Assembly (NCBI RefSeq): GCF_026586665.1
Contig: NZ_JAODIY010000004.1
Coordinates: 366,120-430,119, forward strand
DNA length: 64,000 nt
Source: Halovenus rubra
GTDB lineage: Archaea > Halobacteriota > Halobacteria > Halobacteriales > Haloarculaceae
Direction of reading: 5' to 3'
Shown: one piece after another, positions 26,875 through 47,093 of the stretch
Position numbering within the stretch: the first letter of the stretch is position 1
Layout of the letters: each line of letters begins with the position of its first letter
Notes under the pieces: generated by a model
What the model saw: the letters and a program-made list of their open reading frames with translations, nothing else
Told to the model about the DNA's origin: nothing
Databases searched by the model: none
Position numbers and translations under genes: made by a program

Positions 26875-27453
26875 TTAGCGCAGTTCCGGCGGCTTTTCAT
26901 GTTCTCCGAGGTGCATCTCGGTGCGGTTGATGTGTGTGTGAGCCAGTGCCGTGACAGTGAATGTTATCAATACAAACACTGCTAACGCAACGCCTGGAAA
27001 TATATCGAAGTTGGACAACAATATTGCAGCAAGTAGAAGAACAACAGCGTCCACCGCAGAAAGGAACAAATAGAATGAACTCCACGGAATATCATTCCCG
27101 GCAACTAGTTCGAAATAGATATCCACCTCTTCAGCTGCGGGGGTAAGTGACGCAACACCTTCTCTGTCATCAAAATCAACAACGCCGATGTCGTCCATCC
27201 GCGGTAGATGTACTTGTTGCAATGATGTGTACACACGCTTGCGCTGGTCGTATGTCACCTCTTCCCATTCAACATCATTTTCCCATGCAGCGATCTGTTC
27301 AGATAGCTCCCCAAGCTCAGCATCTTCCCCGTTCTTTTTCAGGTAGTGGAGTGTGTACCGACGACGATGATTACTCAACAACTTGAAATAGTCATCGTAA
27401 TCAATTGATTCTGGGGACGAATCCGAGTTACCTGAATTAGTTTTCGTACTCAT
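26875..27453 (-). CDS. DUF7344 winged-helix membrane protein
   Basis: 192 residues. Residues 20-110 are the haloarchaeal DUF7344 winged-helix domain: YFKLLSNHRRRYTLHYLKKNG, then AAWENDVEWEEVTYDQRKRVYTSLQQVHLPRMDDIGVVDFD, recognisable by the R-x-V-Y-T-S-L-x-Q-x-H-L-P motif. Two hydrophobic helices near the C terminus (about 125-145 and 150-170) anchor it in the membrane. Presumed DNA-binding regulator of surface genes, by family and context. Paralogue of the protein at 38986. Confidence 0.85.
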   Translation of the reverse strand: MSTKTNSGNSDSSPESIDYDDYFKLLSNHRRRYTLHYLKKNGEDAELGELSEQIAAWENDVEWEEVTYDQRKRVYTSLQQVHLPRMDDIGVVDFDDREGVASLTPAAEEVDIYFELVAGNDIPWSSFYLFLSAVDAVVLLLAAILLSNFDIFPGVALAVFVLITFTVTALAHTHINRTEMHLGEHEKPPELR

Positions 27454-28020
27454 ACTATGTGCCTTGGTGGCCGTCAGTGCTGGTATCCCCACCATGGGGC
27501 ATCTCTTTACTGTTTGACTATGCCTCATTCATTGTTAATTAGCTGATATTGGTCCTAGTTAAGTGTGAGTTAGTTCCATTAAACAGACTTTTTCATGTCT
27601 TTGTACATACCATATCGGCTACGTTAACAACACTGTTATTTAAAACATTCTAAATAGTGGTTATACCCATCTCTGAGAGCAAACTAACCTACAGCAGTAA
27701 TTTTGCTGGGCTAAAAACCTCAAACAGTTTGGTGGATAATACCGGTATAATACCGCCAAGAACTGCTATTTCAGAGTGTCTCATCTCTTGTTCAGGTTGC
27801 TGTTTATCTCTGTAACTAGGTGGTACTTTAGAACGCAGAATGTGTTCGTAATCCCGCAACTACATTAAAACAGTTATGCTTGAAATTTGATATTATCTGG
27901 GACTTCAAGAAAATACTGAAGCTGAACAGAAACGCTACATGGAGTCCAACTACCAGCGGCGTCAGGCCCTCTCTCATACTAAAACAAATATTCGCTGCTA
28001 CTGAGCTAAACTGTCGCTAC
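27454..28020. other. Long AT-rich intergenic region
   Basis: About 570 bases without a credible gene or RNA. It is conspicuously AT-rich and serves as the divergent upstream region of the DUF7344 gene (left) and the HalX regulator (right). Confidence 0.5.
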
Positions 28021-28821: not shown

Positions 28822-29766
28822 ATGAAACGAATTGTGCTTACACTTACTGTACTTCTCGCTCTCGGATTGATACTTTTCCCGACAGTCGGCTTTCCACTCA
28901 GTATGGACAGTGGTCCCGACCCCGTAGAAGAAATTAGTCATCTAGAAATGATGCCAAGCGACGGGGCGAATGGCGCCTACGCTGTGTTCACTCCACAAGG
29001 GAAACTGCATCTCAACTTCTCGACTGCAAAACAGCAACAGGCCGGCACCGGAATAAATAATGATACGGTTACATATATCCATAATGTATTCAAAATTGCA
29101 AACGTAGATAACTCGTCAGTCCCAGTCTGGGTTGAATTAGAAGCCAACGACGTTGCAGTCGAATTTTATCGGTCATCTGACCCTACTGCATCAATTCAAG
29201 GAGAATCCAACGCAGTCCAAGTAAACGGGAACGACAATCAGCAGGTAGGTGTGCTCATCGATACAACAGGTAAGCAGATTCCAGAGTCGTTCACGTTCAC
29301 CGTGTACTCTAAGGCCGAAGACGACGAAAGTGAAGACGAGACACCGACTGAACAAGACCCAGTGACTGCTCCAAGCGAAGAGACACCGGTCGAAGAAACG
29401 CCCACAGATAACACACCAGACGAAGGCGGAGACGAGACTTCGGATGATGAAACGCCATCAAGCGAAACGCCGACCCAAAGTACCCCGTCGGAAACCGATC
29501 AGGGAGAGGGTGGGTCCGGAACAACCACGATAACACCGACACCAACGCAGACAGCAGAGCCTGGTGCAGGCGGAGCGCAACCTGATGGTGGCGACGATCA
29601 AGATACCGATGGTACTGAACAAGAAGGCGAAGTCATTGATCCCACCGACGACGGTCTCGGTGCAATCTTGGGCGGTCCCCTGTCCAATACACTGTGGTTG
29701 CTGCTTGTTGCTGCTGTTCTTGGCGTGGTCGGGTTCGCAGGGCTACGTAGGTGGGCAAGGAATTAA
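28822..29766 (+). CDS. DUF1102-related exported protein with Gly-Gly/TM/Arg C-terminal tail
   Basis: 314 residues. The signal peptide MKRIVLTLTVLLALGLILFP lacks a Tat RR. A globular domain of DUF1102 type follows (DGANGAYAVFTPQGKLHL, TYIHNVFKIANVDNSSVPVWVE), spanning about 30-165. Then comes a roughly 95-residue acidic, Thr/Pro/Glu-rich spacer (ETPVEETPTDNTP type) likely to be glycosylated. The C terminus is tripartite: AILGGPLSN, a hydrophobic helix and RRWARN. This resembles sorting tails such as GlyGly-CTERM. The rhomboid protease gene begins 33 bases after the stop codon. Confidence 0.8.
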   Translation: MKRIVLTLTVLLALGLILFPTVGFPLSMDSGPDPVEEISHLEMMPSDGANGAYAVFTPQGKLHLNFSTAKQQQAGTGINNDTVTYIHNVFKIANVDNSSVPVWVELEANDVAVEFYRSSDPTASIQGESNAVQVNGNDNQQVGVLIDTTGKQIPESFTFTVYSKAEDDESEDETPTEQDPVTAPSEETPVEETPTDNTPDEGGDETSDDETPSSETPTQSTPSETDQGEGGSGTTTITPTPTQTAEPGAGGAQPDGGDDQDTDGTEQEGEVIDPTDDGLGAILGGPLSNTLWLLLVAAVLGVVGFAGLRRWARN

Positions 29767-29798
29767 CTCACAGCAGTTCGGACAGCCAAACGGTCACG

Positions 29799-30641
29799 AT
29801 GGAAAACCATGTACCGGGTGGTTCAGAGGACTTCTCGTGGAAAATCAAGGCTGATGTTCAGTTTGTTGATCTCCTACTCCTTGGTAGCGTTCCAGTGGTC
29901 TTGTGCCTCGTCTTTTTTCTTCCCGAAGGACAACGGAGCCAGTTGGTTTTTGAGGTCGATAACCCGTCGATACTGACTGCGTTTACTGCCTCGTATGTTC
30001 ATTTGACTGAGTCTCATCTCACCGGCAACGTAGCAGTCTACCTTGTTGTAGCACCAATGTACTATCTCGTGTGCGTGTTGAGCGACCGACGGCCGCTGTT
30101 TTGGTATACGACTGTCGTTGTGCTCAGCGTCTTTCCATTTGCACTGGCTACAATGCAACTGTCTTTCCTTACTAAGCGGACTGTGTTAGGGTTCTCGGGA
30201 ATTAACGCAGCGTTTGCTGGCTTGCTTTGTTTTGCCGTTGTCCGCTATACGGGTGATGTACTTTCAAAACGGTTGAGCCATCATTACTCACCGGTCTTGC
30301 TCTTTGTTGTCTTTGGGATCGTTACACTGGTCTCGCTGCCAGATCGAGCTTGGCGAACTGAGCTGGCAATACTCTCTTTTACACTCGCTGGCCTGTATCT
30401 CGGGTTCCTCCTTCGCCAAAGTGGGATACCGACGATTGGTGATGTTCGGGAAGCCCTCGACAGTCCAGGATATGTCGAACTTGCGGGTAGCTCTCTTGGA
30501 ATTGTTCTCGTTTATCCGTTTGTTGCCTTCCAGCCGAAGATGGCTGTTGAGGGAGGGGCCCTTGATATCTATATTCATCTACTCGGGTTCGCTCTTGGAT
30601 TCATTGTTGTCTATATTTTCGTTACTGTTACTGAGGAGTAA
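29799..30641 (+). CDS. Rhomboid-family intramembrane serine protease
   Basis: 280 residues with seven or more hydrophobic helices. The rhomboid signature is intact: H68-x4-H73-x3-N77 in VHLTESHLTGNVAVYL, nucleophile Ser133 in GFSGINAAFAG, and catalytic His260 in IHLLGFALGF. Rhomboids cut transmembrane helices of other proteins. It is 32 bases downstream of the DUF1102 protein with a Gly-Gly tail, probably co-transcribed, which makes that protein the likely substrate. The start MENHVPGG is preferred over one inside the upstream gene. Confidence 0.85.
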   Translation: MENHVPGGSEDFSWKIKADVQFVDLLLLGSVPVVLCLVFFLPEGQRSQLVFEVDNPSILTAFTASYVHLTESHLTGNVAVYLVVAPMYYLVCVLSDRRPLFWYTTVVVLSVFPFALATMQLSFLTKRTVLGFSGINAAFAGLLCFAVVRYTGDVLSKRLSHHYSPVLLFVVFGIVTLVSLPDRAWRTELAILSFTLAGLYLGFLLRQSGIPTIGDVREALDSPGYVELAGSSLGIVLVYPFVAFQPKMAVEGGALDIYIHLLGFALGFIVVYIFVTVTEE

Positions 30642-31196: not shown

Positions 31197-34100
31197 ATGA
31201 GTAAAAGCGAAATCACAACGAAGTTGTTTGCCATCGCTTTCGCGGTGGTTATGGCGCTGTCGATGGTGAGCATGGGTGCTGCATCCATCGGTGCGCAGAC
31301 AACAACAGACGACGTAGATGTACAGAATTTTGAAGACGTAGAGATCTCTACTGATCTGCAAGACACAGCAGATTCAAATGAAGTCGTCGAGGCAATCGTC
31401 CGGTTCGATTCGATTGACGTGGACGCGTTGCCGACTGGCAACCACGATGCAGTCGTTGGGCAGCTCAAATCGCACGCGGACCGCACACAGGAACGGTTCA
31501 AAGCGTGGGCTAGCCAGAACGACGCAGTTTCTGTTGAAGGAAGTCTCTGGATCACGAACGCTGCAGTGGTCAAGATCCGGACCAGCGAGGTCAGCCTCGA
31601 CGACCTCGCCGACCAGCCTGGTGTCACACGCATCCACGAGAACCACCAGTATTCGCTCCCTGAGGTTCAGGAAGGCGATGCCCCAGCTAACCAGGACGTA
31701 ACCTACGGCCTCGACCAGATGAACGCGACCGAAGTCTGGGACATGGGTATCACTGGCGAGGGTGCCGACGTGGCCATCCTCGATACTGGTGTTGCAGGTG
31801 ACCACCCGGACATCGACATTGCTCCGGAACGCTTCGTCGAAATCGATGAAGACGGTAACCCAGTCGATGTTGATCCGTACGACTCCGCAGACCACGGTAC
31901 GCACGTGAGTGGTACCGCAACCGGTAGCGCCAACCCTGATGGTGGCACGGCTTACGGTGTTGCGCCTGATGCTACTCTCTGGCACGGCCTGACGATTCCG
32001 GGCGGTGGCGGCTCTTTCGTGCAGGTTGCTGGTGGTATGGAGTGGGCTGCAAACCAGTCTGAAATTGATGTTGTCGGCATGAGCCTCGGTGCAGAGGGTT
32101 ACCTCCCTGACCTGATCGAGGCAGCGGAGAACATCCGTGAATCCGGAAAGATTCTGACCGCATCGATCGGCAACGCTGGTCAGGATACCAGTGGTTCCCC
32201 CGGTAACTACTACTCGTCTTTCGCTAGCGGTGCTGTCGACTCTGACGGCAACCTGGCGGGTTTCTCGAGTGGTGAAACAATCAACACTCAGGAAGACTTC
32301 GGGGACGATGCCCCCAATTACTGGCCTGATGAGTACGTCCAGCCAAACGCCGCTGCAGCCGGTGTCGACGTTCTGAGTGCTGCCCCAGATGGTAGTACGC
32401 AGAGTCTGTCAGGGACTTCGATGTCCCAGCCCCACAAGGCTGGCCTCATGGCCCTGATGACATCCGCATACGGAGACGTTAACCCTGACTTGTTCAAGGA
32501 CGTTGTTCAGGAAACCGCATGGCAGCCTGACGACAGTCTTGAAGACCCGAACCAGCAGTTCGGTCACGGTATTGTTGACGCAGCAGCAGCCGTCGGACAG
32601 GTTGCCTACAACCAGTCCATCGAAGGAACCGTCTACGACACGGAAGGTAACCCGGTCGCGGGTGCCGAAGTGACCGTCGACGAGACCGGCGTCAGTACGA
32701 TGACCGGTGAAGACGGAACGTACTCGATTATCCACGAAGCCGGTACGTGGAGCGTTACGGCAGATGCGTTCGGTCACTCCCCGATGACCGAAACAGTCGA
32801 ACTAAACGAAAACGAAACCGCAACCCAGGAGTTTGACCTTGACGGCGAACTCGACCTCGAGCCTGTTGAAGGTCAACAGGAGGGTGTCGAAGCAGGTAGC
32901 ATGGTGACGGCTACGGTCAACATCGCGAATGTTGACACTGTCACCGTTAACGAAATTGCCGGCTACGAAGGTAACATGACGCTACACGTCGGCGGTGAGG
33001 AGGCCACCTTCGGTGAGCCTGTCTCCGTTGACTACAACGGCTGGAGCACAGTCGTCGAAATCGCAGTCGAAACTGAGTCCGATGTCGCTGGTGAGATCGA
33101 GCTTGAACACACCTTTGCGGGTGCAGGCGACAGTACCACCATCACGACCGGACCGACTACCGTCTTCGAAGAATACGTCAAAGTTGGTGTCGTCGGTGAA
33201 AACGGCGACGATGTCGTCAACCGGCTCAGCAGTCAGCTCGGTTCGATGTACACTTTCGACACACTGACCAGCTCCGAGGCAGTTGACGCCGCCAGCAACG
33301 CCGAATACGACGTGTACGCCATCAACTCGATGGAAGAGAATCACGTCGAAGAGTTCAACGGATACACCGCTGGAGCCACAGCAGGTGTCGTCTGGCTTGA
33401 CAATTGGGGCTCGTCCTCGAACGGTATCGAGGCCAAGTCCGCAGTTCTGGGCAACCCCAGTAGCACTAGCGACAGCTTCTCATCGCCAAACCCTGAACTC
33501 GAGATCACCTCTGACCACCCGATCTTCGAAGGTGTCGGTCAGGTTGGTGACATGTTCCAGATTCACAGCGCCTCCTTTGCGGACCACTCGTGGTTCGAGG
33601 GGTACGACGGTGACGTGATCGGTAACATCCAGGCAGGCGGCGTCGATGACGGCAGCGGTGTCGGTGTCGACGAAGAAGATAACACGATTCTGCTCTCCAC
33701 GTTCGGTAGCTCTTCGTTCGTCTCGAGCGGCGACTTCAGCGAAGAGGCAGATATGGTGCTTGCAAACGCAGTCTCGTACCTTAGCGAAGAGTCCGACGTT
33801 GAACCTGAAGCGACGCTGAGTATCGAAGATACAAACGTTTCGGTCCAGCATGCTGAAGACGAAGTGACCCTTCACGCAACTCACGAATCCGCTGCTGGAT
33901 TCCAGGCGTTCATCAACTTCGATACTGAAGCCGTCGAAATAACCAACGTTGAAGCCGCGAACATGGGTATCCAGTATGAGCTGAACAACGATGAGGGCTG
34001 GCTCTACATCTCCGGTGCAGAAGCAACTGGCCAGGAGAACCCCGAGCTTGCCCACATCTCGCTCAACGCGTCCGGACTTGACGCGAGTGAGGAAACCGCA

Positions 34101-34469
34101 CTCGAACTTGGCAGTGACAGCGTTGTCAACGACGAGATGGGTAACCAACTCCTCACTACGCTCGAGAATGGTCACATCAACGCTATCTCTCAGGAGCTTG
34201 GTGACGTCCTCGGTGACGGTGACATCCACTCCGGTGACGCTGTCGTGGTCCAGCGCTACATCGCTGGCCTCGACATCCCTGTCTCCGAAGAGATGGTCGA
34301 GACCTATGGTGACGTTGACCAGGACGGCGAAGTCACGTCTGCTGACGTGACCGCCATCCTTCAGCACATCACTGAGCCCGACCACCCAGGCTTTGCGCCT
34401 GATGAAGACTCTGATGTTCAGAGTATGACGATGGTCGTCCAGGGCCCACAGATTGGCCTAGCAGGCTAA
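31197..34469 (+). CDS. Secreted subtilase with cohesin-like and dockerin-like modules
   Basis: 1090 residues. An N-terminal export helix (9-30) is followed by an I9-like propeptide (about 55-155). The S8 protease domain (170-460) has the triad Asp196 (ILDTG), His233 (DHGTHVSGT) and Ser408 (SGTSMSQPH), with oxyanion Asn326. Next come a carboxypeptidase-regulatory-like beta domain (475-545), further beta and ThuA/glutaminase-like segments (about 545-870), a cohesin-like domain (ending near 1000; NNDEGWLYISGA) and a dockerin-like pair of Ca loops (GDVLGDGDIHSGDAV; GDVDQDGEVTSADV). Codon use is strongly biased, suggesting high expression. Tandem paralogue of the 35569 gene. Confidence 0.9.
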   Translation: MSKSEITTKLFAIAFAVVMALSMVSMGAASIGAQTTTDDVDVQNFEDVEISTDLQDTADSNEVVEAIVRFDSIDVDALPTGNHDAVVGQLKSHADRTQERFKAWASQNDAVSVEGSLWITNAAVVKIRTSEVSLDDLADQPGVTRIHENHQYSLPEVQEGDAPANQDVTYGLDQMNATEVWDMGITGEGADVAILDTGVAGDHPDIDIAPERFVEIDEDGNPVDVDPYDSADHGTHVSGTATGSANPDGGTAYGVAPDATLWHGLTIPGGGGSFVQVAGGMEWAANQSEIDVVGMSLGAEGYLPDLIEAAENIRESGKILTASIGNAGQDTSGSPGNYYSSFASGAVDSDGNLAGFSSGETINTQEDFGDDAPNYWPDEYVQPNAAAAGVDVLSAAPDGSTQSLSGTSMSQPHKAGLMALMTSAYGDVNPDLFKDVVQETAWQPDDSLEDPNQQFGHGIVDAAAAVGQVAYNQSIEGTVYDTEGNPVAGAEVTVDETGVSTMTGEDGTYSIIHEAGTWSVTADAFGHSPMTETVELNENETATQEFDLDGELDLEPVEGQQEGVEAGSMVTATVNIANVDTVTVNEIAGYEGNMTLHVGGEEATFGEPVSVDYNGWSTVVEIAVETESDVAGEIELEHTFAGAGDSTTITTGPTTVFEEYVKVGVVGENGDDVVNRLSSQLGSMYTFDTLTSSEAVDAASNAEYDVYAINSMEENHVEEFNGYTAGATAGVVWLDNWGSSSNGIEAKSAVLGNPSSTSDSFSSPNPELEITSDHPIFEGVGQVGDMFQIHSASFADHSWFEGYDGDVIGNIQAGGVDDGSGVGVDEEDNTILLSTFGSSSFVSSGDFSEEADMVLANAVSYLSEESDVEPEATLSIEDTNVSVQHAEDEVTLHATHESAAGFQAFINFDTEAVEITNVEAANMGIQYELNNDEGWLYISGAEATGQENPELAHISLNASGLDASEETALELGSDSVVNDEMGNQLLTTLENGHINAISQELGDVLGDGDIHSGDAVVVQRYIAGLDIPVSEEMVETYGDVDQDGEVTSADVTAILQHITEPDHPGFAPDEDSDVQSMTMVVQGPQIGLAG

Positions 34470-34516
34470 CGTCACTCAGCCGTTCCGAGCGTGATTGAAT
34501 CGTACGCTAACTATCT

Positions 34517-34552
34517 CCCGCCCCGTGCGGGTTTCCCCAACTCGCTTTTTTT
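34517..34552 (+). terminator. Stem-loop plus T-tract after the subtilase gene
   Basis: CCCGC-CCCGT-GCGGG (34517-34531) is followed by a T7 run (34546-34552), 47 bases past the stop codon. A second pairing, CCAACTCGC with GCGGGTTGG, brackets the T-run. Confidence 0.6.
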
Positions 34553-34630
34553 ACCATGCGGGTTGGTTTCAAGAATACTGTAGATAAATCTGTAGCTAAA
34601 TTACTTAGATTAACTCATAACTGTTTGGGA

Positions 34631-34641
34631 AAAACTTATAT
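34631..34641 (+). promoter_or_regulatory. TATA box of the membrane cohesin gene
   Basis: AAAACTTATAT lies about 25-33 bases before the ATG at 34664, so this gene is transcribed on its own rather than by read-through from the subtilase. Confidence 0.55.
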
Positions 34642-34663
34642 TTCTGTGTGAAGAGCTAGCAGT

Positions 34664-35482
34664 ATGAAGCTTCCAAGCCCCTCGTTCAGCATCGGCGTGG
34701 TGCTGATGTGTGCCGTCCTTTTCGTTTCGTCGGTAACGGTTGCTGCTGGTGCATACAGCACGTCAGCAGACAACATAGAGACAATACAGCAAGAAGTCGA
34801 CCAACTATATCTTAACTCAGACACCGGGTCTCCAGGCGGGTCAGCGCTTGTTACCCTTGGTGCTGAGGCCGACAACGTAGCCGGGTACGAAGTCAATCTC
34901 AGTTTTGACCCATCCGTCGTACAGTTCGCTAACGCCACAGGAGAGAGTCTGTCTGATCCTGTCACAAATGTAAATAATAAAGAAGGATGGGTTTATCTAA
35001 CAAGTTCGGACCCGGAAGGCGTTGCAGACCCGACGATAGCATTTCTGGAGTTCCGCGTTGTCGGTGAAACTGGAGATAAAAGCCCACTCCAATTTAACGA
35101 CGGTGACACTCTCGTCAATAACGAAGATCTGGAGGTATACGAGGCATCTAACGGTGAAATAGACCTTTCGTCAACGACTATCAGTGTGGCTGAAATCGGC
35201 TCAGATCAGAGCTCGGATAACGGCGACGGGTCTTCATCCGGAGATGGTTCATCAGACCAATCTTCAGACGATACTGCCGGTGATAACTCGGCTGATGAGA
35301 ACTCAGACAGTCAAACTGAACCAGATGACTCGTCCACAGGAGACACGGCGCCACAAGATGATTCAAGCTCTGGCATGTCGACGCTTACTATTGTTGCACT
35401 GGCGTTTGCCGCAGGTGCTATACTCGTCACAGCAATTGTCGGCTCTGTTCTGTATGGGGTCCGAGTTGGCCGGAGACAGTAA
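34664..35482 (+). CDS. Membrane-anchored cohesin-like domain protein
   Basis: 272 residues. A signal peptide (about 1-29) is followed by a cohesin-like beta-sandwich (about 45-170: VAGYEVNLSFDPSVVQFAN, NNKEGWVYLTSSDPEG, IAFLEFRVVG). A roughly 55-residue Asp/Ser-rich spacer comes next. A C-terminal helix (STLTIVALAFAAGAILVTAIV) with YGVRVGRRQ facing the cytoplasm anchors it. It shares the NN-x-EGW-x-Y core with the cohesin-like domains of both flanking subtilases. In cohesin-dockerin systems this is the docking partner, so it is a candidate cell-surface receptor for the proteases. Confidence 0.82.
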   Translation: MKLPSPSFSIGVVLMCAVLFVSSVTVAAGAYSTSADNIETIQQEVDQLYLNSDTGSPGGSALVTLGAEADNVAGYEVNLSFDPSVVQFANATGESLSDPVTNVNNKEGWVYLTSSDPEGVADPTIAFLEFRVVGETGDKSPLQFNDGDTLVNNEDLEVYEASNGEIDLSSTTISVAEIGSDQSSDNGDGSSSGDGSSDQSSDDTAGDNSADENSDSQTEPDDSSTGDTAPQDDSSSGMSTLTIVALAFAAGAILVTAIVGSVLYGVRVGRRQ

Positions 35483-35568
35483 CTAATCACCCTTTCAGGT
35501 GGTTCCGGAACCTGTTTCAGAGTGACAATAACTACCCTTAGTTACGTGCAACAAGCGAATAGTTCGTC

Positions 35569-38500
35569 ATGAGTAGACTCTCTGGGCTGGTTGGTTGCCT
35601 TTCGCTTGTGCTGGTCTTTTCGCTTATCTGGCCGTGGGTCGGCTTCACTGGAGGGGCGGTTGGGGCTGGGCAGACTCCTTTCGATGAGAAAGAGAGAAAC
35701 CAGACGGCCAACTTCGAAAACCAGACTGTCGTCGTACGTTTTGAACCAGTTGACCGTGACCGTCTCTCAGGGAGTGACCGACCAACCGTGACTGAGCGGC
35801 TCAAAGACCATGCAAACAAAACCCAGAAGCCGTTCTTACGGTGGGCAAAACGCACTGACAGCGTCGCCGTCAAGAGCAGCTATTGGTTGACGAATGCGGT
35901 CCTCGTCTCTGTGAGTGATAAATTAAGCCGGGCAGAACTCGTCGATCATCCACATGTCGTTGGGTTACACAATAACTTCGAAGTTAGCGTGCCGGATACC
36001 GGAGAACCCAGCTCTCAGACCGCATCAGCGACAGGAGATGTTACGGAGGGACTGGATCTGCTCGGGGTACCTGAAGTCTGGGAAACGTACGGTGTCAGGG
36101 GAGACGGTGCAGATGTCGCTATCATCGACACTGGTGTTGATATCACACATCCAGACCTTACACTCCCCAGCTCACGGTGGGCACACTTCGACAAAGAAGG
36201 CAATCTGGTCGACTCTCAACCACACGACAACAATGGTCATGGAACACACGTAAGTGGCACTGTCGTCGGTCCGACTAATCCAGCAGGTGATGTACCCGCT
36301 TATGGCGTTGCTCCGGAGGCGACGCTCTGGCACGTAAAAGCACTCGATAGCAGTGGTGTCGGAACGTTTGAGCAACTCGTGGCCGCGATGGAGTGGGTAG
36401 TGACTGAGTCGGATGTGGATATTGTTGGAATGAGTCTTGGTGCTGAAGGTTACCATACTCAACTCATTGAGCCTGCACAACACCTCCGGGACGCAGGAAT
36501 CATTCTTACGACCTCAGTTGGAAATAGCGGCCCCGAAACAACTTCTTCTCCTGGGAACTATCAGAGTGCATTTACTACTGGCGCAGTCGACAGCGTGGGG
36601 AACGTTGCTGATTTCTCCAGTGGTAACAGGGTCGATACTGCCAACTTTACTGATGAAGTACCGGATAGTTGGGAGACTTCTTATATCAAGCCCGATGTTG
36701 TTGCGCCAGGTATCGATATCACGAGTACCTCTACTGGCACTGGGTACGAGACACTTTCAGGTACTTCGATGGCTCAACCGCACACTGCCGGTATCTTCGC
36801 ACTCCTAGTCTCAGCACTGGGAACAACTGACCGAGAACGCTTCCAGCACATTATCAAGAAAACAGCAGATGACCGGGAAGCAATCCCAAAGAACCGGGAA
36901 GGAAGCGGTATTATCGACGCGACGGCGGCTATCGGCGCTATTCTTGGAGACGACGGAGTCAGTGGAACGGTCCAGAACACAGGTGGTCAGCCACTGGGCA
37001 AAGCTCAAATCACCGTCGAGGAAACTGGTGCAACAGTCCGTACAGAATCTGACGGCACCTATTCGGTACCACTCGCGCCAGGGCAGTACACCATCACGGC
37101 AACAGCGTTCGGTTACGAATCGCAAACCAAACCCGTGACAGTCAGTGACAACAACCAGATAACTACTCAGTTTTCGCTCAATTCAGCACCTGATCTCAAT
37201 ATCGTTGATGGGCTTCCCAAACGTCTCGGATCTGGAATTTCTGCGGCCAGTGAGCTAACAGTGGCCAACGCAACAAAGCTTACAATCGATAACCGTGGAA
37301 CAATTAATGGGAGTCTTACTGTCACTGTCGATGGAGATGAGGTGTCATTTGGAACACCGATACCGCTTTCTCCGGGTGTAAATGATGTCAATATTGGCAT
37401 TCAAGTAGGAGATAAAGCAAAAGGAACTCTTGGATTGTCCTATACTGTTGAGAGCGGTGGGATGGTGAACGCTGTCGACGGGAGGCGTGTTACTGTACTC
37501 AATGAGCAATACAGCGTTGGAGTTGTCGAAGACAACAGCTCCAACTGGGGACAAACGTGGGCAAACAAACTTGAGGGGAGACTTCCAGCCAAGTATAGTG
37601 TCGACTCAGTAAGTGCACAGAACGTAATTGAAACGCCCCACAGATACGATTCGTATTTCGTCCATTCTATCGACGATACGATTGTAGACGAGTGGATGGA
37701 AGCGACGAGCGATATTGGGGTCGTCTATACGAGCCAGCATGCTGGACCGGATGCGCTCAACCAGCGTTCGACTGCAATCGGGGACCCCGACACCGTCCGT
37801 GCCACACCGGGGTTGCGGACTTGGAGAGTAGTGGAAGAACATCCTCTCTTCGACGGCGTCGCAACGCGGGGAGACACTATTACGGTCCACAAAGAGGATG
37901 TCTTCGCAGACGGAGCTTCGTTTTCGGGAACAGAGGGCACCATTATTGCAGAGGCAGCCAACGGAAAGGGTGCTGTCGCCATTGACTCCTCCAGAAACGA
38001 TATCATGCTTACGTCGGTCGGATTTGGCTGGGTTCTGCCAGGCGAGCACACCCGTGACGCGTTGAGTGTTGTTACGAACGCAGTAACGTACTTCCTAGAC
38101 TCGGAACCTACCAGTAAATACTCGCTCGGGATAGCAGACGGCAGTGTCTCAAACAGAGTTCCAAACACGACAGTGAGGCTGTCCGCTCGCGGAGACGAAA
38201 TCGCGGGTTACCAAAGCTTCATTGAGTTTGATCCCGATAGACTGCAGATTGATACTGTGTCTCCAATGACTTTTGAGACGGTCTACGAGCTTAATAATCA
38301 AGAGGGTTGGCTCAACATCGCTGGAACGGCCCCGGAAGGACGGACAGATCCGATTCTTGCAGAACTATCGGTGACGGTAAACACAACTGCGACAGATAAT
38401 GTAACGTTATTTCTTGGCGGTGAGTCAAAGCTGAACGGTAAAATGGGGAGTAAGATTGATGCTGTTCGCAACCGTGGCCAGATTACGATTCGTGAGCGAC

Positions 38501-38757
38501 AACTTGGTGATGTTCTGAATAATGGAAGGATCCACTCGGGCGATGCCATCATTGTGCAGCGCTACCTTGCCGGCTTGGATATTCCGGTTTCAACAGAAAC
38601 TGTCGAGACCTACGGTGATATTGACCAGGATGGTGACGTTACATCTGCAGATGTTTCCTTGCTATTGCAATATCTCGTTACTCCAAGAGACTCGAATCTG
38701 AGGCCCGGCAACGACAAGCAACAAGGAAATCTGATGACGGCGTTGAGGGTAGTATAA
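35569..38757 (+). CDS. Second secreted subtilase with cohesin-like and dockerin-like modules
   Basis: 1062 residues, paralogous to the 31197 protein over its full length and with the same domain order. Signal peptide (1-33), propeptide, S8 domain with Asp187 (IIDTG), His224 (GHGTHVSGT) and SGTSMAQPH, then carboxypeptidase-regulatory-like, ThuA-like, cohesin-like (NNQEGWLNIAGT) and dockerin-like modules. The first Ca loop is degraded (GDVLNNGRIHSGDA, lacking two usual Asp/Asn ligands); the second (GDIDQDGDVTSADV) is intact. Codon bias is weaker and AT content higher than in the paralogue, suggesting lower expression or divergence. Confidence 0.9.
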   Translation: MSRLSGLVGCLSLVLVFSLIWPWVGFTGGAVGAGQTPFDEKERNQTANFENQTVVVRFEPVDRDRLSGSDRPTVTERLKDHANKTQKPFLRWAKRTDSVAVKSSYWLTNAVLVSVSDKLSRAELVDHPHVVGLHNNFEVSVPDTGEPSSQTASATGDVTEGLDLLGVPEVWETYGVRGDGADVAIIDTGVDITHPDLTLPSSRWAHFDKEGNLVDSQPHDNNGHGTHVSGTVVGPTNPAGDVPAYGVAPEATLWHVKALDSSGVGTFEQLVAAMEWVVTESDVDIVGMSLGAEGYHTQLIEPAQHLRDAGIILTTSVGNSGPETTSSPGNYQSAFTTGAVDSVGNVADFSSGNRVDTANFTDEVPDSWETSYIKPDVVAPGIDITSTSTGTGYETLSGTSMAQPHTAGIFALLVSALGTTDRERFQHIIKKTADDREAIPKNREGSGIIDATAAIGAILGDDGVSGTVQNTGGQPLGKAQITVEETGATVRTESDGTYSVPLAPGQYTITATAFGYESQTKPVTVSDNNQITTQFSLNSAPDLNIVDGLPKRLGSGISAASELTVANATKLTIDNRGTINGSLTVTVDGDEVSFGTPIPLSPGVNDVNIGIQVGDKAKGTLGLSYTVESGGMVNAVDGRRVTVLNEQYSVGVVEDNSSNWGQTWANKLEGRLPAKYSVDSVSAQNVIETPHRYDSYFVHSIDDTIVDEWMEATSDIGVVYTSQHAGPDALNQRSTAIGDPDTVRATPGLRTWRVVEEHPLFDGVATRGDTITVHKEDVFADGASFSGTEGTIIAEAANGKGAVAIDSSRNDIMLTSVGFGWVLPGEHTRDALSVVTNAVTYFLDSEPTSKYSLGIADGSVSNRVPNTTVRLSARGDEIAGYQSFIEFDPDRLQIDTVSPMTFETVYELNNQEGWLNIAGTAPEGRTDPILAELSVTVNTTATDNVTLFLGGESKLNGKMGSKIDAVRNRGQITIRERQLGDVLNNGRIHSGDAIIVQRYLAGLDIPVSTETVETYGDIDQDGDVTSADVSLLLQYLVTPRDSNLRPGNDKQQGNLMTALRVV

Positions 38758-38985: not shown

Positions 38986-39606
38986 ATGTCTGACGTAACA
39001 TCACAAATACAGAGCAGTGAGGATACAGGAGGGGAAAAACAAAGTCGCGGTATTGGAATCGAAACAACCAATATCGCTGAGGAGAAGGTTGAGTCAATCT
39101 CGCGCAATGAGATATTTTATCTATTGAGTAACGAACGGCGCGTCGCTGTTCTTAGATATTTAGCCGAACAGGATAGTTCGGAACAACAGCTGGGTGGTGT
39201 TGTCGAGAAAATAGCTAGTTGGGAAAACGATAAACCAGTCGTCCAGCTAGGTAATGATGAACGCCATCGAGTCTATACTTCATTGCGGCAGGCACACCTT
39301 CCAGCGCTGGATGAAGCCGATGTAATCAATTTCAACAAAAACCGTGGGATCGTTAGCAGAGGAAACTCGTTTGACCGTGTCCATGAGTATCTTGAGTATG
39401 ATCCATCTACAGAATTAAACGATGAGCAGACAACGTCGTTGTTTATCATCTCTTTACTCGGTCTTACCGGACTTCTCTTCTCGGGACTGAGTGCAACTCC
39501 CGTCTTTCCATCTTTTGGACTGGGGTATAGTGCTGTCATATTTATTACACTCGTCCTAACAATAATTGTTTCGATAGGATGCTTTTTGAACTCTCGCTTG
39601 AATTGA
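38986..39606 (+). CDS. DUF7344 winged-helix membrane protein
   Basis: 206 residues. The winged-helix region (about 38-135) carries IFYLLSNERRVAVLRYLAEQD and HRVYTSLRQAHLPALDEADVINF, matching the DUF7344 protein at 26875 motif for motif. Two C-terminal transmembrane helices (about 148-168 and 178-200) follow. Presumed regulator, close to the subtilase genes; targets unknown. Confidence 0.83.
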   Translation: MSDVTSQIQSSEDTGGEKQSRGIGIETTNIAEEKVESISRNEIFYLLSNERRVAVLRYLAEQDSSEQQLGGVVEKIASWENDKPVVQLGNDERHRVYTSLRQAHLPALDEADVINFNKNRGIVSRGNSFDRVHEYLEYDPSTELNDEQTTSLFIISLLGLTGLLFSGLSATPVFPSFGLGYSAVIFITLVLTIIVSIGCFLNSRLN

Positions 39607-40205: not shown

Positions 40206-40859
40206 TCAGTTGTCCGGTCGGAATGAAGGGTCTTCGTCTACATCACCGACGAGAGTCACTTTCTCATTGAATACTTGATCGTACTCGGTGGCGTCGATTC
40301 CATCAGTGTATACTCGCAGCCCAAACGTGATGCATTTTCCAACTTCAAGCTCGACCGCACTGTCTTTTCCCATGATTGGATCTATATCAAGAACGTTAGT
40401 TCCCACTGTCTCGTCGGTAGCTTCCCCTACGTAACACATTAGTCTGGAAGTACCCTGATATTGTGCATCGATACCATCAGGAAAGTCATCATCAGTTGGC
40501 TTTTTAATAAAGAAGGCAACATCCTCTAAACCTTGGTTACAGACTTGGACGAGATCGTCGAACCACGTTAATGCGGACGTATTTGTTCCCTCTCCAGGTT
40601 CAACGCCATTTTTTGAGTCGAACGCATCGTGTTCTGAAATATCAATACCTATCGTTTCATCACCGTCCATACTGGCGAAATGCTTGCTGTTTCGTGACCG
40701 CGAAACAGTCTCAAATTTTAAATATGCTGATGAATCTCCGGCGACGTTGATTGTGACATCGCGTTGTGCCTCTACTGTACTGAAGGCGCTTGTCCCAGCT
40801 AGCCCACTACCAACTGCGGCAGAGCCACCGATTGCAACGAGTATTGTGCGTCGTTTCAT
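40206..40859 (-). CDS. DUF1102 exported protein with SipW-type N terminus
   Basis: 217 residues. The N terminus MKRRTILVAIGGSAAVGSGLAGTSAFSTVEAQRD has twin Arg, a hydrophobic stretch and the G-T-x-A-F-S motif of SipW-dependent signal peptides. It is followed by the E/A-x-R strand that starts the mature DUF1102 domain (DVTINVAGDSSAYL). The mature protein is acidic beta sequence with a conserved W-F-D-D-L-V-Q-V-C-N-Q-G core, also found in the 43242 protein. Probable extracellular fibre-like or S-layer-associated subunit (inference from TasA/camelysin analogy). Confidence 0.82.
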   Translation of the reverse strand: MKRRTILVAIGGSAAVGSGLAGTSAFSTVEAQRDVTINVAGDSSAYLKFETVSRSRNSKHFASMDGDETIGIDISEHDAFDSKNGVEPGEGTNTSALTWFDDLVQVCNQGLEDVAFFIKKPTDDDFPDGIDAQYQGTSRLMCYVGEATDETVGTNVLDIDPIMGKDSAVELEVGKCITFGLRVYTDGIDATEYDQVFNEKVTLVGDVDEDPSFRPDN

Positions 40860-41162
40860 AATGCCAATCACCCGTATGAGAGGTGTCTGTAGAAAAACAT
40901 ATGTCTCCTACAAGTATTGTATTCGTGTGCCTGACATTCAAGACTGCTGCACAGACACGTCTCAGGTATTATCTGAACAACAGTTATCTTTGCTAAAAGA
41001 TTCTCTTATCCAGAGTTGGATTTTCCCCCAGCACTCAGCTGTCCCACTTCAATTGGTGTAGGCTTCTCCAAACCTATCGTGGAGCTCTCACACTGGCACC
41101 GAAAAACGACTTCTCCTATCTTGAACTCTGCTTATCTCCAGTGAGACACCGTCGGTCGATTT
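40860..41162. other. Intergenic region between two exported-protein genes
   Basis: About 300 bases with no convincing gene. It serves as the promoter region of the 40206 gene and the downstream region of the 41163 gene. Confidence 0.4.
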
Positions 41163-42062
41163 TCACTCTGAAGTAGTGTCAGTGCTGACGTTTCCACACT
41201 GTGCGGGCGTTTTCTTTCCCCCTCCGAACGAGCCACGACTATTCCGAATAACCCAGCCCGCTTTCCCATCACACGGTGATGTCTTGCATCGCCAGTTCCT
41301 ATCACCGGCGAACTGAACCTTTTGTCCACGTATCCCTTCGAAATCGCGTTCGTTAGCGTACCCATCAGCTGACTTTTGATCCATGGTAGCTGTTCCAGAT
41401 GTGCTCGAACCAGTCCTGTAACGATACCACTCAGCCCCACCGTGAAGAACGACCTCTTCAACTGCGACATCGGTTTTCCATTTAATACCAACAACTTCAC
41501 CATCGTCATCGTGCCAGTTGGGCTCTACTGACGGGTTCAACTCCGAAGGGTTTGTGTCAGATTTGGGTGCGAATCCAACCAGAACGATTCTTTGCCTGTC
41601 GATACAGGAACATTCGAGATTGACTTCGGAGTTCCGTTGGGCATTGATTAGTGTGTGACCACCCTCACTTTCAGCGCGAATGTCGAAGCCAAACTCTCCA
41701 ACCGCTTGCGTGTTATCTCCACAGCTAAATGTAACCGTGAGAGGCTTTTGTTCTCCAAGACCCAACGAATCTGGGAATTGATAATCTAGCAGCTGAATGC
41801 CACCTCCTGACAGATTGGCTGAGCCATCGACACGCGAAAGTGGGTCATTTGTTTGGTTACGTAACGGAATGTTGAATGTTTCCTTGCAGCCAAACTCAAA
41901 CGTCTCGGGAATCTCCATGCCGAGATACGCATCTTCGTCGCCTTCGACTTGAATTTGCATTTTCCGCTGTGTCTCGGCAGTCGTCGTCCCACGACTTCCG
42001 ACTAACAACCCGGTTCCAGTCAGTGCGGCTGATGAGCCAAACAAAAATCGTCTCCGTTTCAT
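41163..42062 (-). CDS. Cys-rich exported protein, divergent member of the SipW-type set
   Basis: 299 residues. The N terminus MKRRRFLFGSSAALTGTGLLVG is Tat-like, followed by a mature start (TQRKMQIQVEGDEDAYLGMEI) that matches the DUF1102 proteins. The body is unlike them: an Ig-like segment (ETFNIPLRNQTNDPLS, PLTVTFSCGDNTQAVGEF), about eight Cys (GCK, SCG, ECSC, RCKTSPC, QCG) and a C-terminal segment with VVGIKWKTDVAVEEVVLHGG. The canonical GTxAFS motif is replaced by VGSRGTTTAET. Function unknown; probably extracellular. Confidence 0.7.
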   Translation of the reverse strand: MKRRRFLFGSSAALTGTGLLVGSRGTTTAETQRKMQIQVEGDEDAYLGMEIPETFEFGCKETFNIPLRNQTNDPLSRVDGSANLSGGGIQLLDYQFPDSLGLGEQKPLTVTFSCGDNTQAVGEFGFDIRAESEGGHTLINAQRNSEVNLECSCIDRQRIVLVGFAPKSDTNPSELNPSVEPNWHDDDGEVVGIKWKTDVAVEEVVLHGGAEWYRYRTGSSTSGTATMDQKSADGYANERDFEGIRGQKVQFAGDRNWRCKTSPCDGKAGWVIRNSRGSFGGGKKTPAQCGNVSTDTTSE

Positions 42063-42588
42063 GGTGTCATAGTGTAAAGGGCGAACTCTGTGTAACTCAC
42101 GTTCGTACTTGTCCAGAACGCATTCCGTGCGTATAAAACCTCATTACCTTTCACGTTCTAAACGAGTTTCTCACAAGCAAAACGCCATGTAACGTGTCTG
42201 TAACACACTCTTCTGTCTCTTTTACAAAATGCATACACCTATCTATTATTGGTGTGACAGGAGGTCCCTGAAACAACAACATCCTTGAATTTCAGTTTGA
42301 AATTAGTTCTACCAGCCTTATGATGTGGTCCGATTTTCAAGTCGTTTTGATGTTATGGCTGCCCTGAGTTGTAACTGGTCCGAAACGCCAAGCTAGTGAT
42401 TTTTTCGTCTGCTTCAACGACTCACGTGAGCGCTTTCAGGGCTAGTGATATGAACACAGCTTTCGGCTCAGGAAGTATAATACAATAGATGTGTGTTTTC
42501 TATTGATAGTTACGTCCGGCACCGCAGATGAGGTCTTTCACACGAAGTGTTGCGGTCTACCTGGACGCAACAACAACAACAAGCAAAC
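42063..42588. other. Divergent intergenic region between exported-protein genes
   Basis: About 525 bases without a credible gene. It contains promoters for the leftward Cys-rich protein and the rightward DUF1102 pair. A perfect 10-base palindrome CTCACGTGAG lies near 42421. Confidence 0.4.
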
Positions 42589-43203
42589 ATGCCAATGAAA
42601 CGACGAAAATTCTTGATCGGCGCAGGCGCACTGGCTGCCGGTGGCGCGACTGCTCTCGGAACCGGCGCATTCAGCAGAGTTGAAGCGGAACGTACAGTGA
42701 GTATTGATGTCGAAACGGACTCAAATGCATATCTGGGATTGAGTAAGTTATCTAATTCGTCGAACAGTCAGCAGTTCGCCGAAGTCAGTGACGGAAAACT
42801 CTCGGTCAATATCGGCGACTCAGGTAATGGAGGCTCTGGTGTCAACCCTGATTCAACAACATACTTCGACGATATGTTCCAACTCAGCAACAACGGGGTA
42901 GCCGAAGCTAATATCTCCTACAGTTTCCCCACGTACAATTCAGGAAGCAATGGACACCCCGACCTTACGAATAATTGGAAAACGCCCACCGATAGTAACT
43001 GGGCTATTTGCTTCTATTATCTCGACAGTAACGATAACCGTCAAATGATCACACCGAACGACGCTGTCTCGCTTGATGCAGGAAATTCCGATAAGATTGG
43101 GGTTCGTACGATGACGCATGGTCTCGACGCGACGACGAATGACCCGCTGATTGATGGTTCTATCACAATTGTCGCAGACGCACCTGACGCTGGTAGTCCA
43201 TAG
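42589..43203 (+). CDS. DUF1102 exported protein with SipW-type N terminus
   Basis: 204 residues from MPMKRRKFLIG (MKRRKFLIG at 42595 is equally possible). The signal contains GATALGTGAFSRVEAER, the SipW-dependent pattern GTxAFS followed by the mature start TVSIDVETDSNAYLGL. The mature domain is Asn/Ser/Asp-rich beta sequence (VNPDSTTYFDDMFQLSNNG). It is a tandem paralogue of the next gene, 38 bases away; the two share nearly identical opening codons and are probably one transcript. Candidate substrate of the signal peptidase at 45896. Confidence 0.85.
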   Translation: MPMKRRKFLIGAGALAAGGATALGTGAFSRVEAERTVSIDVETDSNAYLGLSKLSNSSNSQQFAEVSDGKLSVNIGDSGNGGSGVNPDSTTYFDDMFQLSNNGVAEANISYSFPTYNSGSNGHPDLTNNWKTPTDSNWAICFYYLDSNDNRQMITPNDAVSLDAGNSDKIGVRTMTHGLDATTNDPLIDGSITIVADAPDAGSP

Positions 43204-43241
43204 GACTACATTCCGTTTTCCACCCGGGCACCACAACAAAA

Positions 43242-43835
43242 ATGAAGCGACGAAAATTCTTGGTTGGTACGGGTCTGAGTGCGACTGCAGGAGTTGGTCT
43301 TATTGGAACGGGAGCGTTCTCACAGGTTGAGAGCGAGCGTAATCTGACAATTGGTCTTGCCAAAGATCCAAAGGCATATCTTGGACTTGACGTTGCTGAC
43401 ACGCCGAACGGTGAATACGGATATGTCGACGACAACGGCAGACTTAGAATCGCGATGTCTGATGAAAACCCATCAGCAGCCAGTTCGCCGATGGGCTTGG
43501 GCGTCAATTCGGATGCTACTTCTTGGTTCCAGAACGTCTTCACCGTCTGCAACCAGGGAACTAAAGAAGCGTCGGTGTACGTCCAAGACGACGAAGACTG
43601 GCCGACAGTCCCCTTGGGGGAGGGGTATCCGGAAGAGGGTAAGCGGCGCCTTGATTTTCATCTCGAAGAGCACAGACAACAATCGATTCTCGGCGAGCAA
43701 AACGCAGTCACTCTCATTGAGGGGTCCTGTGCTATGATCAGCGTTACGATTAGAGCTCATAGCCTTTCTGAGGGAGATCAGGTACTCGCTGAGATAGATA
43801 ATCAAGTCACGATCAACGCCAATAGCTTCGACTAG
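43242..43835 (+). CDS. DUF1102 exported protein with SipW-type N terminus
   Basis: 197 residues. MKRRKFLVGTGLSATAGVGLIGTGAFSQVESER is the SipW-type signal (GTGAFS). The mature domain begins NLTIGLAKDPKAYLGLDV and shares SWFQNVFTVCNQGTKEASVYV with the 40206 protein. A charged central region (EGKRRLDFHLEEHRQQ) is unusual for the family. Second gene of the pair with 42589. Confidence 0.85.
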   Translation: MKRRKFLVGTGLSATAGVGLIGTGAFSQVESERNLTIGLAKDPKAYLGLDVADTPNGEYGYVDDNGRLRIAMSDENPSAASSPMGLGVNSDATSWFQNVFTVCNQGTKEASVYVQDDEDWPTVPLGEGYPEEGKRRLDFHLEEHRQQSILGEQNAVTLIEGSCAMISVTIRAHSLSEGDQVLAEIDNQVTINANSFD

Positions 43836-44317
43836 ATTACGCCTCGCTGGCGTTCTTGGACGAGTACGCAGGGAGTCAACAGCCACACTATACTCCAAAT
43901 TTTAGCTTATATATGCTAGTATACGATCGTAACAGGCTATGATACCGCCAGTCTCTCGATTGTACTGGTGCTCGATCTGGTAAAGCAACTAGCATTTGTA
44001 TAAGATATTCTATATACTATCTAACTCATACGCATCTAATGCTACTACATTGTCGTATGATTAAAACTCAAGAAGAGTTTTTGTTTATCTATAGCTGAAT
44101 TTCTGTTCTACGTATGGTATAGCAGTCCTGACTGGACTCTCAGGCACTAACTGAGCACCTGTCGTAGTCGATTATTGAATTCGATTTTTGATTCAGTGGG
44201 AGTAATCCTATATTACATGCATTAGAATCTTAATTTGAGATCCTGTGATGGCTTTTCACGGTCACCACCTTGGAGTCGTCAAGTGGAGAATTCAGCCTGA
44301 AACAACTGTGAATATGC
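43836..44317. other. AT-rich intergenic region before the histidine kinase
   Basis: About 480 bases, strongly AT-rich, with no gene or RNA recognised. It presumably carries the kinase promoter. Confidence 0.45.
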
Positions 44318-45745: not shown

Positions 45746-45895
45746 GTGTCCCAACTCACCCGTCACGTCGCAGTATCGAACACGATGCACTCTGTGTGTA
45801 AGCATAGGTGGTCGAATTATTAGCATATCATCCGAATGAATGTATGAAAAAAGATACCAGAGCTGTGGGTTAACGTCAGCACAGACAGGTCAGGC

Positions 45896-47041: not shown

Positions 47042-47093
47042 CAGAGATAGTTTTTCAAAAAAGACAAACATAACGAAAATATTACAATAAACA

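Follow-up and report, generated by a model that had tools for sequence, protein, structure and literature searches.

Cohesin and dockerin modules are the most familiar natural example of a protein plug and socket, and what archaea use them for has so far been unclear. Among the closest described systems, the double-dockerin S8 protease dDoc_0689 of Clostridium thermocellum prefers the cohesin of the cell-bound scaffoldin ScaD, and its surface anchoring has been proposed (PMC12484212). An archaeal dockerin was reported to bind the non-cellulosomal cohesin of Archaeoglobus fulgidus (PDB 2xdh), and the same paper describes, from anaerobic methanotrophic (ANME) archaea, scaffoldin-like proteins that combine a dockerin with as many as five cohesins; it cites Peer 2009 to the effect that scaffoldins were absent from the archaea then known (PMC9012536). 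Haloarchaeal subtilase-dockerin proteins have been known since 2008, when NP_280653.1 of Halobacterium was listed in BMC Genomics as a subtilisin with two Dockerin_1 repeats (PMC2605481). Dockerins in haloarchaea have also been described as substrate-binding (PMC10963439, PMC13260240). The DNA analyzed here, referred to as the window, is a 64,000-nucleotide stretch of the Halovenus rubra genome (contig NZ_JAODIY010000004.1, positions 366,120 to 430,119 of the forward strand). It encodes two subtilases, SubA and SubB, and between them a membrane-anchored cohesin protein, AncC. These three proteins probably constitute one surface-docking module; this reading is based on what the domains are and how they fold, on the exported or anchored build of the proteins, and on the order of the genes, the conserved gene pair, and the constraint seen in the dockerin.

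The three genes and their domains lie on the + strand, with gaps of 194 nt between SubA and AncC and 86 nt between AncC and SubB. SubA (31197..34469, 1090 aa; assigned from the open reading frame list, Pfam, and catalytic residues) and SubB (35569..38757, 1062 aa; open reading frame list, Pfam, and BLASTP) are exported S8 subtilases of identical architecture and are tandem paralogues, with 38% identity by BLASTP. Each contains, in order, an N-terminal hydrophobic segment, the S8 domain, a CarboxypepD_reg domain, β and α/β regions, a cohesin-like domain and, a few residues later, a type I dockerin. In SubA, the S8 domain is preceded by a signal peptide and then by a region that we take to be prodomain-like, and the 200-aa region following CarboxypepD_reg is, by eye only, presumed to be ThuA/GATase-like. 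The label "Tat signal" was likewise an assumption, for which the check consisted only of RR in the first 90 residues. The Peptidase_S8 domains were identified by Pfam (SubA, 31755..32570, E 3.7e-32; SubB, 36100..36909, E 1.6e-44), and both proteins possess the Asp/His/Ser triad and the oxyanion Asn (Asp196, His233, Ser408, and Asn326 in SubA). A usually conserved subtilase motif reads PDVVAPG in SubB and, unusually, PNAAAAG in SubA, where the triad is intact. The triad and Asn were found in 35/35 wider relatives, a partly circular count given that the rows were chosen by their His and Ser motifs. AncC (34664..35482, 272 aa; open reading frame list and Pfam) is a membrane-anchored single-cohesin protein, in which an N-terminal hydrophobic segment is followed by the cohesin domain (34799..35152; Pfam, AlphaFold model, and VIA-align), an acidic Ser/Gly-rich linker, a C-terminal transmembrane (TM) segment (35375..35461; limits set by eye), and a basic tail.

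The dockerins consist of two F-hands each (SubA, 34197..34376; SubB, 38503..38682; Pfam and profiles) and matched Dockerin_1 (PF00404; cut-off 22.9 bits) with 34.6 bits (E 2.2e-8) for SubA and 38.9 bits (E 1.0e-9) for SubB. The AncC domain matched Cohesin (PF00963) with 27.4 bits against a cut-off of 24.1 (E 4.5e-6). The cohesin-like domains located in cis to the dockerins (SubA, 33795..34184, from BLASTP with AncC and a custom profile; SubB, 38104..38490, from BLASTP, an AlphaFold model, Foldseek, and VIA-align) gave no Pfam match at E≤1. Because they lie beneath Pfam's reach, they were tested by BLASTP and fold. In BLASTP, AncC matched SubA with E 8e-12 and SubB with E 3e-11; low-complexity filtering was off and the SubA match extends past the cohesin domain. 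AlphaFold models, built from a five-sequence alignment, covered the SubB cohesin-dockerin part and the AncC cohesin. The predicted local distance difference test (pLDDT) score was mostly 73-94 over the first 110 residues of the SubB model and about 74-93 across most of the AncC cohesin. In Foldseek comparisons with the PDB, all 50 of the matches listed for each of the two cohesin models were cohesin entries, Archaeoglobus included. The VIA-align lists, which relate to the cohesin part only, contained 49 cohesins among the 50 matches listed for SubB (best Z 12.7, root-mean-square deviation 2.7, 112 aligned) and 47 among the 50 listed for AncC (best Z 9.3, root-mean-square deviation 3.1, 116 aligned). 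With a profile of 48 anchored cohesins, matches in the PDB were limited to 3 sequences (E≤0.01), all of them type II cohesins from the adaptor scaffoldin of Acetivibrio, and a profile of 41 dockerins recovered 31 distinct PDB sequences at E≤0.001, mostly named dockerins or dockerin-bearing cellulosomal enzymes. The Ca ligands are complete in dockerin repeat 2 of both proteases. In repeat 1, both have Leu at ligand position 3, which is occupied by Asn/Asp in 36/41 aligned sequences; the Leu is characteristic of the window's clade (4/41 dockerins). Collectively, the domain, fold, and comparative evidence supports the assignment of the modules in SubA, SubB, and AncC as true cohesin and dockerin homologues.

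An earlier note, made from the sequence of this DNA, had described two subtilases each ending in cohesin-like and dockerin-like modules, with a separate TM-anchored cohesin-like protein between them. Both descriptions proved correct: the coordinates and order are exact, the dockerins exceed the Dockerin_1 cut-off, the cis cohesins were recovered by BLASTP in both proteases and by fold in SubB, and AncC exceeds the Pfam Cohesin cut-off and has a C-terminal TM segment. The note had also drawn attention to NN-x-EGW as common to the three cohesin-like domains, and the motif is literally present in all three. The exact form was found in only 5/43 anchored and 1/30 cis cohesins (a set that includes the window's SubA/AncC pair), and the family consensus is the looser NVxNExGWV. 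NN-x-EGW was therefore rejected as a marker of mutual binding; it is a feature of this cohesin fold family that is rarely exact elsewhere.

The pairing of a protease with an anchored cohesin is conserved among haloarchaeal relatives. A profile of 13 cohesin-dockerin (Coh-Doc) units matched 74 of 391 sampled genomes of the class at E≤1e-5, and 150 match rows from 69 genomes were examined; the pairing counts rest on the matches listed. Among these, 35/69 genomes contain a full Coh-Doc unit, and in 34 of the 35 a cohesin-only gene adjoins it. The DNA was read in 31 of these genomes (30 positive), and the remaining four (G234, G267, G278, and G381), all positive, were scored from match rows only; the sole genome without a cohesin-only neighbor is G396. 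The cohesin gene is usually found 3' of the unit and on the same strand, with spacing ranging from a 65-nt overlap to 263 nt. Almost all of the Coh-Doc enzymes are S8 subtilases, other cases being a β-helix protein (L039) and a protein with weak carbohydrate-binding matches (L061). In a second type of pair, represented by 13 loci, an enzyme with a dockerin and no cis cohesin precedes the cohesin gene, with a 4-nt overlap in 12 loci and a 2-nt gap in one. The enzyme was a metallophosphoesterase (MPE) in both of the two tested by Pfam, so that the name MPE applied to these 13 loci reflects Pfam for 2/13 and a shared N-terminal motif in most others. The cohesins of this second type form their own clade (98/99) in the cohesin tree. 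Anchoring is complementary within the pairs: a C-terminal hydrophobic segment was present in 40/43 cohesin partners vs. 0/43 dockerin partners, and of the three cohesin partners lacking it, one is cut by the locus end and one falls just under the threshold. The 43 pairs are a biased sample of loci fetched by profile match, and 34/35 genomes is the fairer figure. Annotated records contain similar arrangements. On a plasmid of Halomicrococcus gelatinilyticus, an S8 peptidase gene is followed after 119 nt by a gene annotated as "cohesin domain-containing protein," and in Halobaculum halobium a DNRLRE-domain gene overlaps a gene with the same annotation by 4 nt. A genome-contig scan with poor patterns returned one locus, in Halopiger goleimassiliensis.

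Within the H. rubra genome, Dockerin_1 matches at E≤0.01 are confined to SubA and SubB, and the Pfam cohesins above cut-off are AncC and one solitary protein on another contig (C48). The latter (L001:6086-6760) is TM-anchored by a C-terminal hydrophobic segment and represents a fourth cohesin that was absent from the earlier note. The genome thus holds two dockerin plugs and four cohesin sockets, two of the sockets being in cis.

The dockerin is the more constrained part of the protease C terminus. Between SubA and SubB, identity is 72% in the dockerin, 49% in the S8 domain, and 33% in the cis cohesin. Mean pairwise identity among 29 S8 Coh-Doc proteins was 0.54 for the dockerin, 0.54 for the S8 domain, and 0.37 for the cis cohesin, the lowest value among the five domains in the comparison; among 28 pairs, it was 0.52 for the dockerin, 0.42 for the anchored cohesin, and 0.36 for the cis cohesin. 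Dockerin distances correlated with anchored-cohesin distances (r 0.42, 28 pairs, permutation p 2e-4) once distances computed from the region preceding the cis cohesin had been removed, as was done for all such correlations. Because linked genes share history, this correlation was retained as weak support only.

These data support docking of the proteases on the anchored cohesin as the likeliest use of the modules. SubA and SubB would be exported through Sec, and AncC, held in the membrane, would use the flexible acidic linker to display its one cohesin. That cohesin would be bound by the dockerins at the C termini of both proteases, by analogy in a Ca2+-requiring manner, and the docked proteases would be kept at the cell surface instead of being lost to the brine, where they may have a nutritional role. 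SubA and SubB would be expected to compete for the one AncC anchor. Docking in trans on AncC is favored because the anchor gene is the constant neighbor and pairs without a cis cohesin exist, and because the divergent SubA and SubB keep a near-identical dockerin, as expected of proteins sharing a socket. The cis cohesin of each protease would offer a second potential socket, and binding of a neighbor's dockerin there would give short protease chains ending on AncC. Since AncC has a single cohesin, holding more than one or two proteases per anchor would require cis cohesins that bind dockerins. The cis cohesin may be a second socket giving short chains, a helper of the dockerin, or a relic.

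Some observations weigh against docking on AncC, and they bear differently on the alternatives. In one of these, the protease would polymerize by itself, the dockerin binding the cis cohesin of the next protease to give head-to-tail chains that AncC caps at the membrane. This is a genuine possibility, if a doubtful one. The cohesin stands immediately before the dockerin in 30/43 paired loci, some relatives have two cohesins there, and the SubB cis cohesin models as a good cohesin fold. Such a role fits less well with the cis cohesin being the least conserved domain (0.37 vs. 0.54 for the dockerin), with the 33% identity of the SubA and SubB cis cohesins beside dockerins that are 72% identical, with the long branch (1.21) of the window-clade cis cohesins in the cohesin tree, and with the 13 paired loci that keep an anchor without any cis cohesin. 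Alternatively, the cis cohesin could act as a structural helper of the dockerin, similar to the X modules that adjoin some bacterial dockerins, or could bind its own dockerin in cis and mask it until release. Dockerin distances correlated more strongly with the cis cohesin (r 0.60, p 2e-4) than with the anchored cohesin, which counts against docking on AncC and is expected of neighbors in one chain and also of binding in cis; moreover, a linked gene block that travels together can yield distance correlations without contact. This high correlation and the short cohesin-dockerin linker in the window's clade fit a helper or mask, and fast divergence of the cis cohesin would suit a spacer. This explanation is nevertheless unlikely, given that the cis cohesin retains a clear cohesin fold and that paired loci include dockerins without one. 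An arrangement of the two modules did not emerge from AlphaFold either, where the dockerin portion of SubB had pLDDT <50 and no confident fold; this result also lends docking on AncC no help.

The remaining difficulties are genomic. Genome-wide co-occurrence of Pfam cohesins and dockerins was considered as support for docking and failed. In a set of 146 genomes from the order, a Pfam cohesin occurs in 31, a dockerin in 57, and both in 15, so that dockerins are present in 15/31 cohesin-positive genomes vs. 57/146 overall (p 0.16, not significant), and 16/31 cohesin genomes have none. One genome (G003) shows 41 matches to the dockerin against 2 to the Pfam cohesin, and solitary TM-anchored cohesins exist, including the one in H. 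rubra. Many haloarchaeal dockerins must therefore serve something else, as the surplus in G003 implies, and the lone cohesins that are common in dockerin-free genomes must have another role. This missing association and the frequency of orphans of both kinds agree with the view that the dockerin is no plug at all but a Ca2+-stabilized or substrate-binding C-terminal module, as dockerins are called in haloarchaeal genome papers (PMC10963439, PMC13260240), with the neighboring cohesin protein working alone. As an account of the window, that view is distinctly improbable: it leaves unexplained the pairing in 34/35 genomes, the recurrence of the pair with another kind of enzyme, the complementary anchoring, and the presence of multi-cohesin proteins in dockerin-rich genomes (see below). 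The absence of a genome-wide association, together with the orphans, instead indicates that pairing belongs to this module and not to all haloarchaeal cohesins and dockerins. Least probable is that the true partners lie elsewhere, the dockerins binding the solitary C48 cohesin and AncC binding something else. The C48 protein does exceed the Pfam cohesin cut-off and has the C-terminal hydrophobic segment, but Pfam cohesins are frequent in dockerin-free genomes (16/31), the C48 cohesin sits on a very long branch (3.01) in the cohesin tree, and it is AncC that is the conserved neighbor. Docking of SubA and SubB on AncC remains the favored reading.

The comparison with a cellulosome requires distinguishing the window from some of its relatives. 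Several cohesins on a scaffoldin and a carbohydrate-degrading cargo are both lacking in H. rubra: AncC has one cohesin, no multi-cohesin protein was found in the genome, and its two dockerin proteins are S8 proteases. Larger cohesin/dockerin clusters were found in three genomes of one genus (g42) of the Natrialbaceae (family f7), the family of Halopiger and G140. In G087 (L034, L035), a 1258-aa protein carries eight cohesins, in eight Pfam stretches, and a PGF-CTERM-like end, and is accompanied by three single-cohesin anchors and six dockerin proteins. In G261 (L067, L068), a 2087-aa protein carries 14 cohesins by a custom hidden Markov model (HMM) and 10 stretches by Pfam, in a cluster with a 3-cohesin protein, three single-cohesin proteins, and ten dockerin proteins. 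G391 encodes two dockerin proteins together with a protein of four cohesins, in which no anchor is visible, and one of two cohesins, both recognized by the custom HMM only, with no Pfam match at 1e-4. The dockerin proteins tested in these clusters are mostly subtilases. Several cohesins are therefore combined in one protein, presumably a scaffoldin, in G087 and G261. The PGF-CTERM label is also our presumption, for which the match consisted only of P-[GA]-[FW] close to a C terminus of hydrophobic character. In G140 (L044), a run of several dockerin genes was noted at C1:2.91-2.93 Mb.

The G261 and G087 clusters are the best candidates for a scaffolded protease complex in archaea. The proposal in the earlier note of an assembly similar in logic to a cellulosome stands in part. 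The modules are true homologues and docking to the anchor is their likeliest use, in view of the domains, fold, gene pairs, complementary anchoring, dockerin constraint, and multi-cohesin relatives; the matrix is conjectural, AncC being a single-cohesin protein. A broader reading is that haloarchaea possess a protease counterpart of the cellulosome, in a minimal form represented by the plug-and-socket proteases of the window, which would chain head-to-tail onto one anchored cohesin, and in a full form represented by the g42 surface scaffoldins, with 8 to 14 cohesins, a PGF-CTERM-like end, and six to ten dockerin proteins that are mostly subtilases. This reading is put forward tentatively, with the balance tilting slightly against it.

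The distribution of the module suggests an accessory element. A tree of 30 S8 Coh-Doc proteins groups SubA and SubB with proteins from two genomes of family f7, G112 and G140 (100/100), and separates them from that of G373, which belongs to the same family as H. rubra. The cohesin tree agrees, placing both AncC (100/99) and the cis cohesins (100/99) with family f7, and four of the five sampled genomes of the window's genus have no Coh-Doc profile match. On the basis of this cross-family grouping and the absence from most congeners, the module is accessory, and it probably moved as one block from family to family, with the details of transfer unsure because SubB lies on a long branch. A viral origin found no support, since two scans of viral contigs gave no relative. 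For a plasmid origin, two plasmid records carry relatives, but there is no sign that the contig holding the window is itself one. No clear mark of an island was seen in the base composition.

The genes around the module were also inspected. A DUF7344 protein identified by Pfam (38986..39606, + strand) is a possible regulator of the module, an inferred role. It is one of three DUF7344 proteins in the whole genome; together with another at 26875-27528 it flanks the module, and the third, also on this contig, is the neighbor of a surface-type protein of 765 aa. The relatives do not bear out DUF7344 as a regular component of the module: a copy occurs within 2 kb in 9/30 Coh-Doc pair loci and in 0/13 loci of the second pair type, counted from SubA/AncC only, for which reason the window itself scored negative. 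Just upstream of SubA (28822-30641), a DUF1102 protein carrying a TM segment at its C terminus overlaps a rhomboid-like membrane protein (Rhomboid, 0.0022, under cut-off) at the latter's start. Beside the module, at 40206-48251, lies a possible surface-fimbria island with TafE-like (NCBIfam 2.8e-16) and TafC-like (8.6e-8) proteins, both under cut-off, two DUF1102-like proteins, a histidine kinase, an S26 signal peptidase, and a DUF5305 protein.

In the literature on haloarchaeal cohesins and dockerins that was searched, no account was found of a paired protease-anchor module or of 8- and 14-cohesin proteins, and Peer 2009 may contain haloarchaeal cases. No paper joining "cohesin domain" with haloarchaea was found, and the papers found on PGF-CTERM with cohesin concern methanotrophic archaea. 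If the proposed docking is correct, haloarchaea rely on cohesin and dockerin to retain proteases on their surface in brine close to saturation, and the dockerins that haloarchaeal genome papers label substrate-binding gain a directly testable role. The graded series, among related genomes, from one-cohesin anchors to many-cohesin proteins would then show how a scaffold could grow from an enzyme-anchor gene pair, and the modules would provide salt-tolerant docking pairs for protein engineering.

Among the known systems, dDoc_0689 and ScaD resemble the window in combining a dockerin-bearing S8 protease with a cell-bound cohesin partner. The dDoc_0689 dockerin is probably that of PDB 8x39/8x3a ("Serine protease"), an identity that we assume. 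As described in the excerpted report, the C. thermocellum protease is bacterial, belongs to a cellulosome, and has two dockerins and no cis cohesin, whereas the H. rubra module is archaeal, combines Coh-Doc tandems with a dedicated anchor gene adjacent to them, and includes no cellulases. The A. fulgidus cohesin (2xdh) is archaeal and has the same fold as those of the window (VIA-align Z 8.3 to AncC and 11.6 to SubB); we know of no paired protease-anchor module in its context. NP_280653.1 is a haloarchaeal subtilase-dockerin protein like SubA and SubB, for which the excerpted text of PMC2605481 mentions no cohesin, anchored-cohesin gene, or pairing. The ANME proteins, as excerpted, are archaeal multi-cohesin proteins with a proposed surface use, like those of genus g42, but they come from methanotrophs and their dockerin cargo is mainly solute-binding proteins, whereas in the present module the cargo would be proteases, and the multi-cohesin proteins of its relatives reach 8 and 14 cohesins with a PGF-CTERM-like end.

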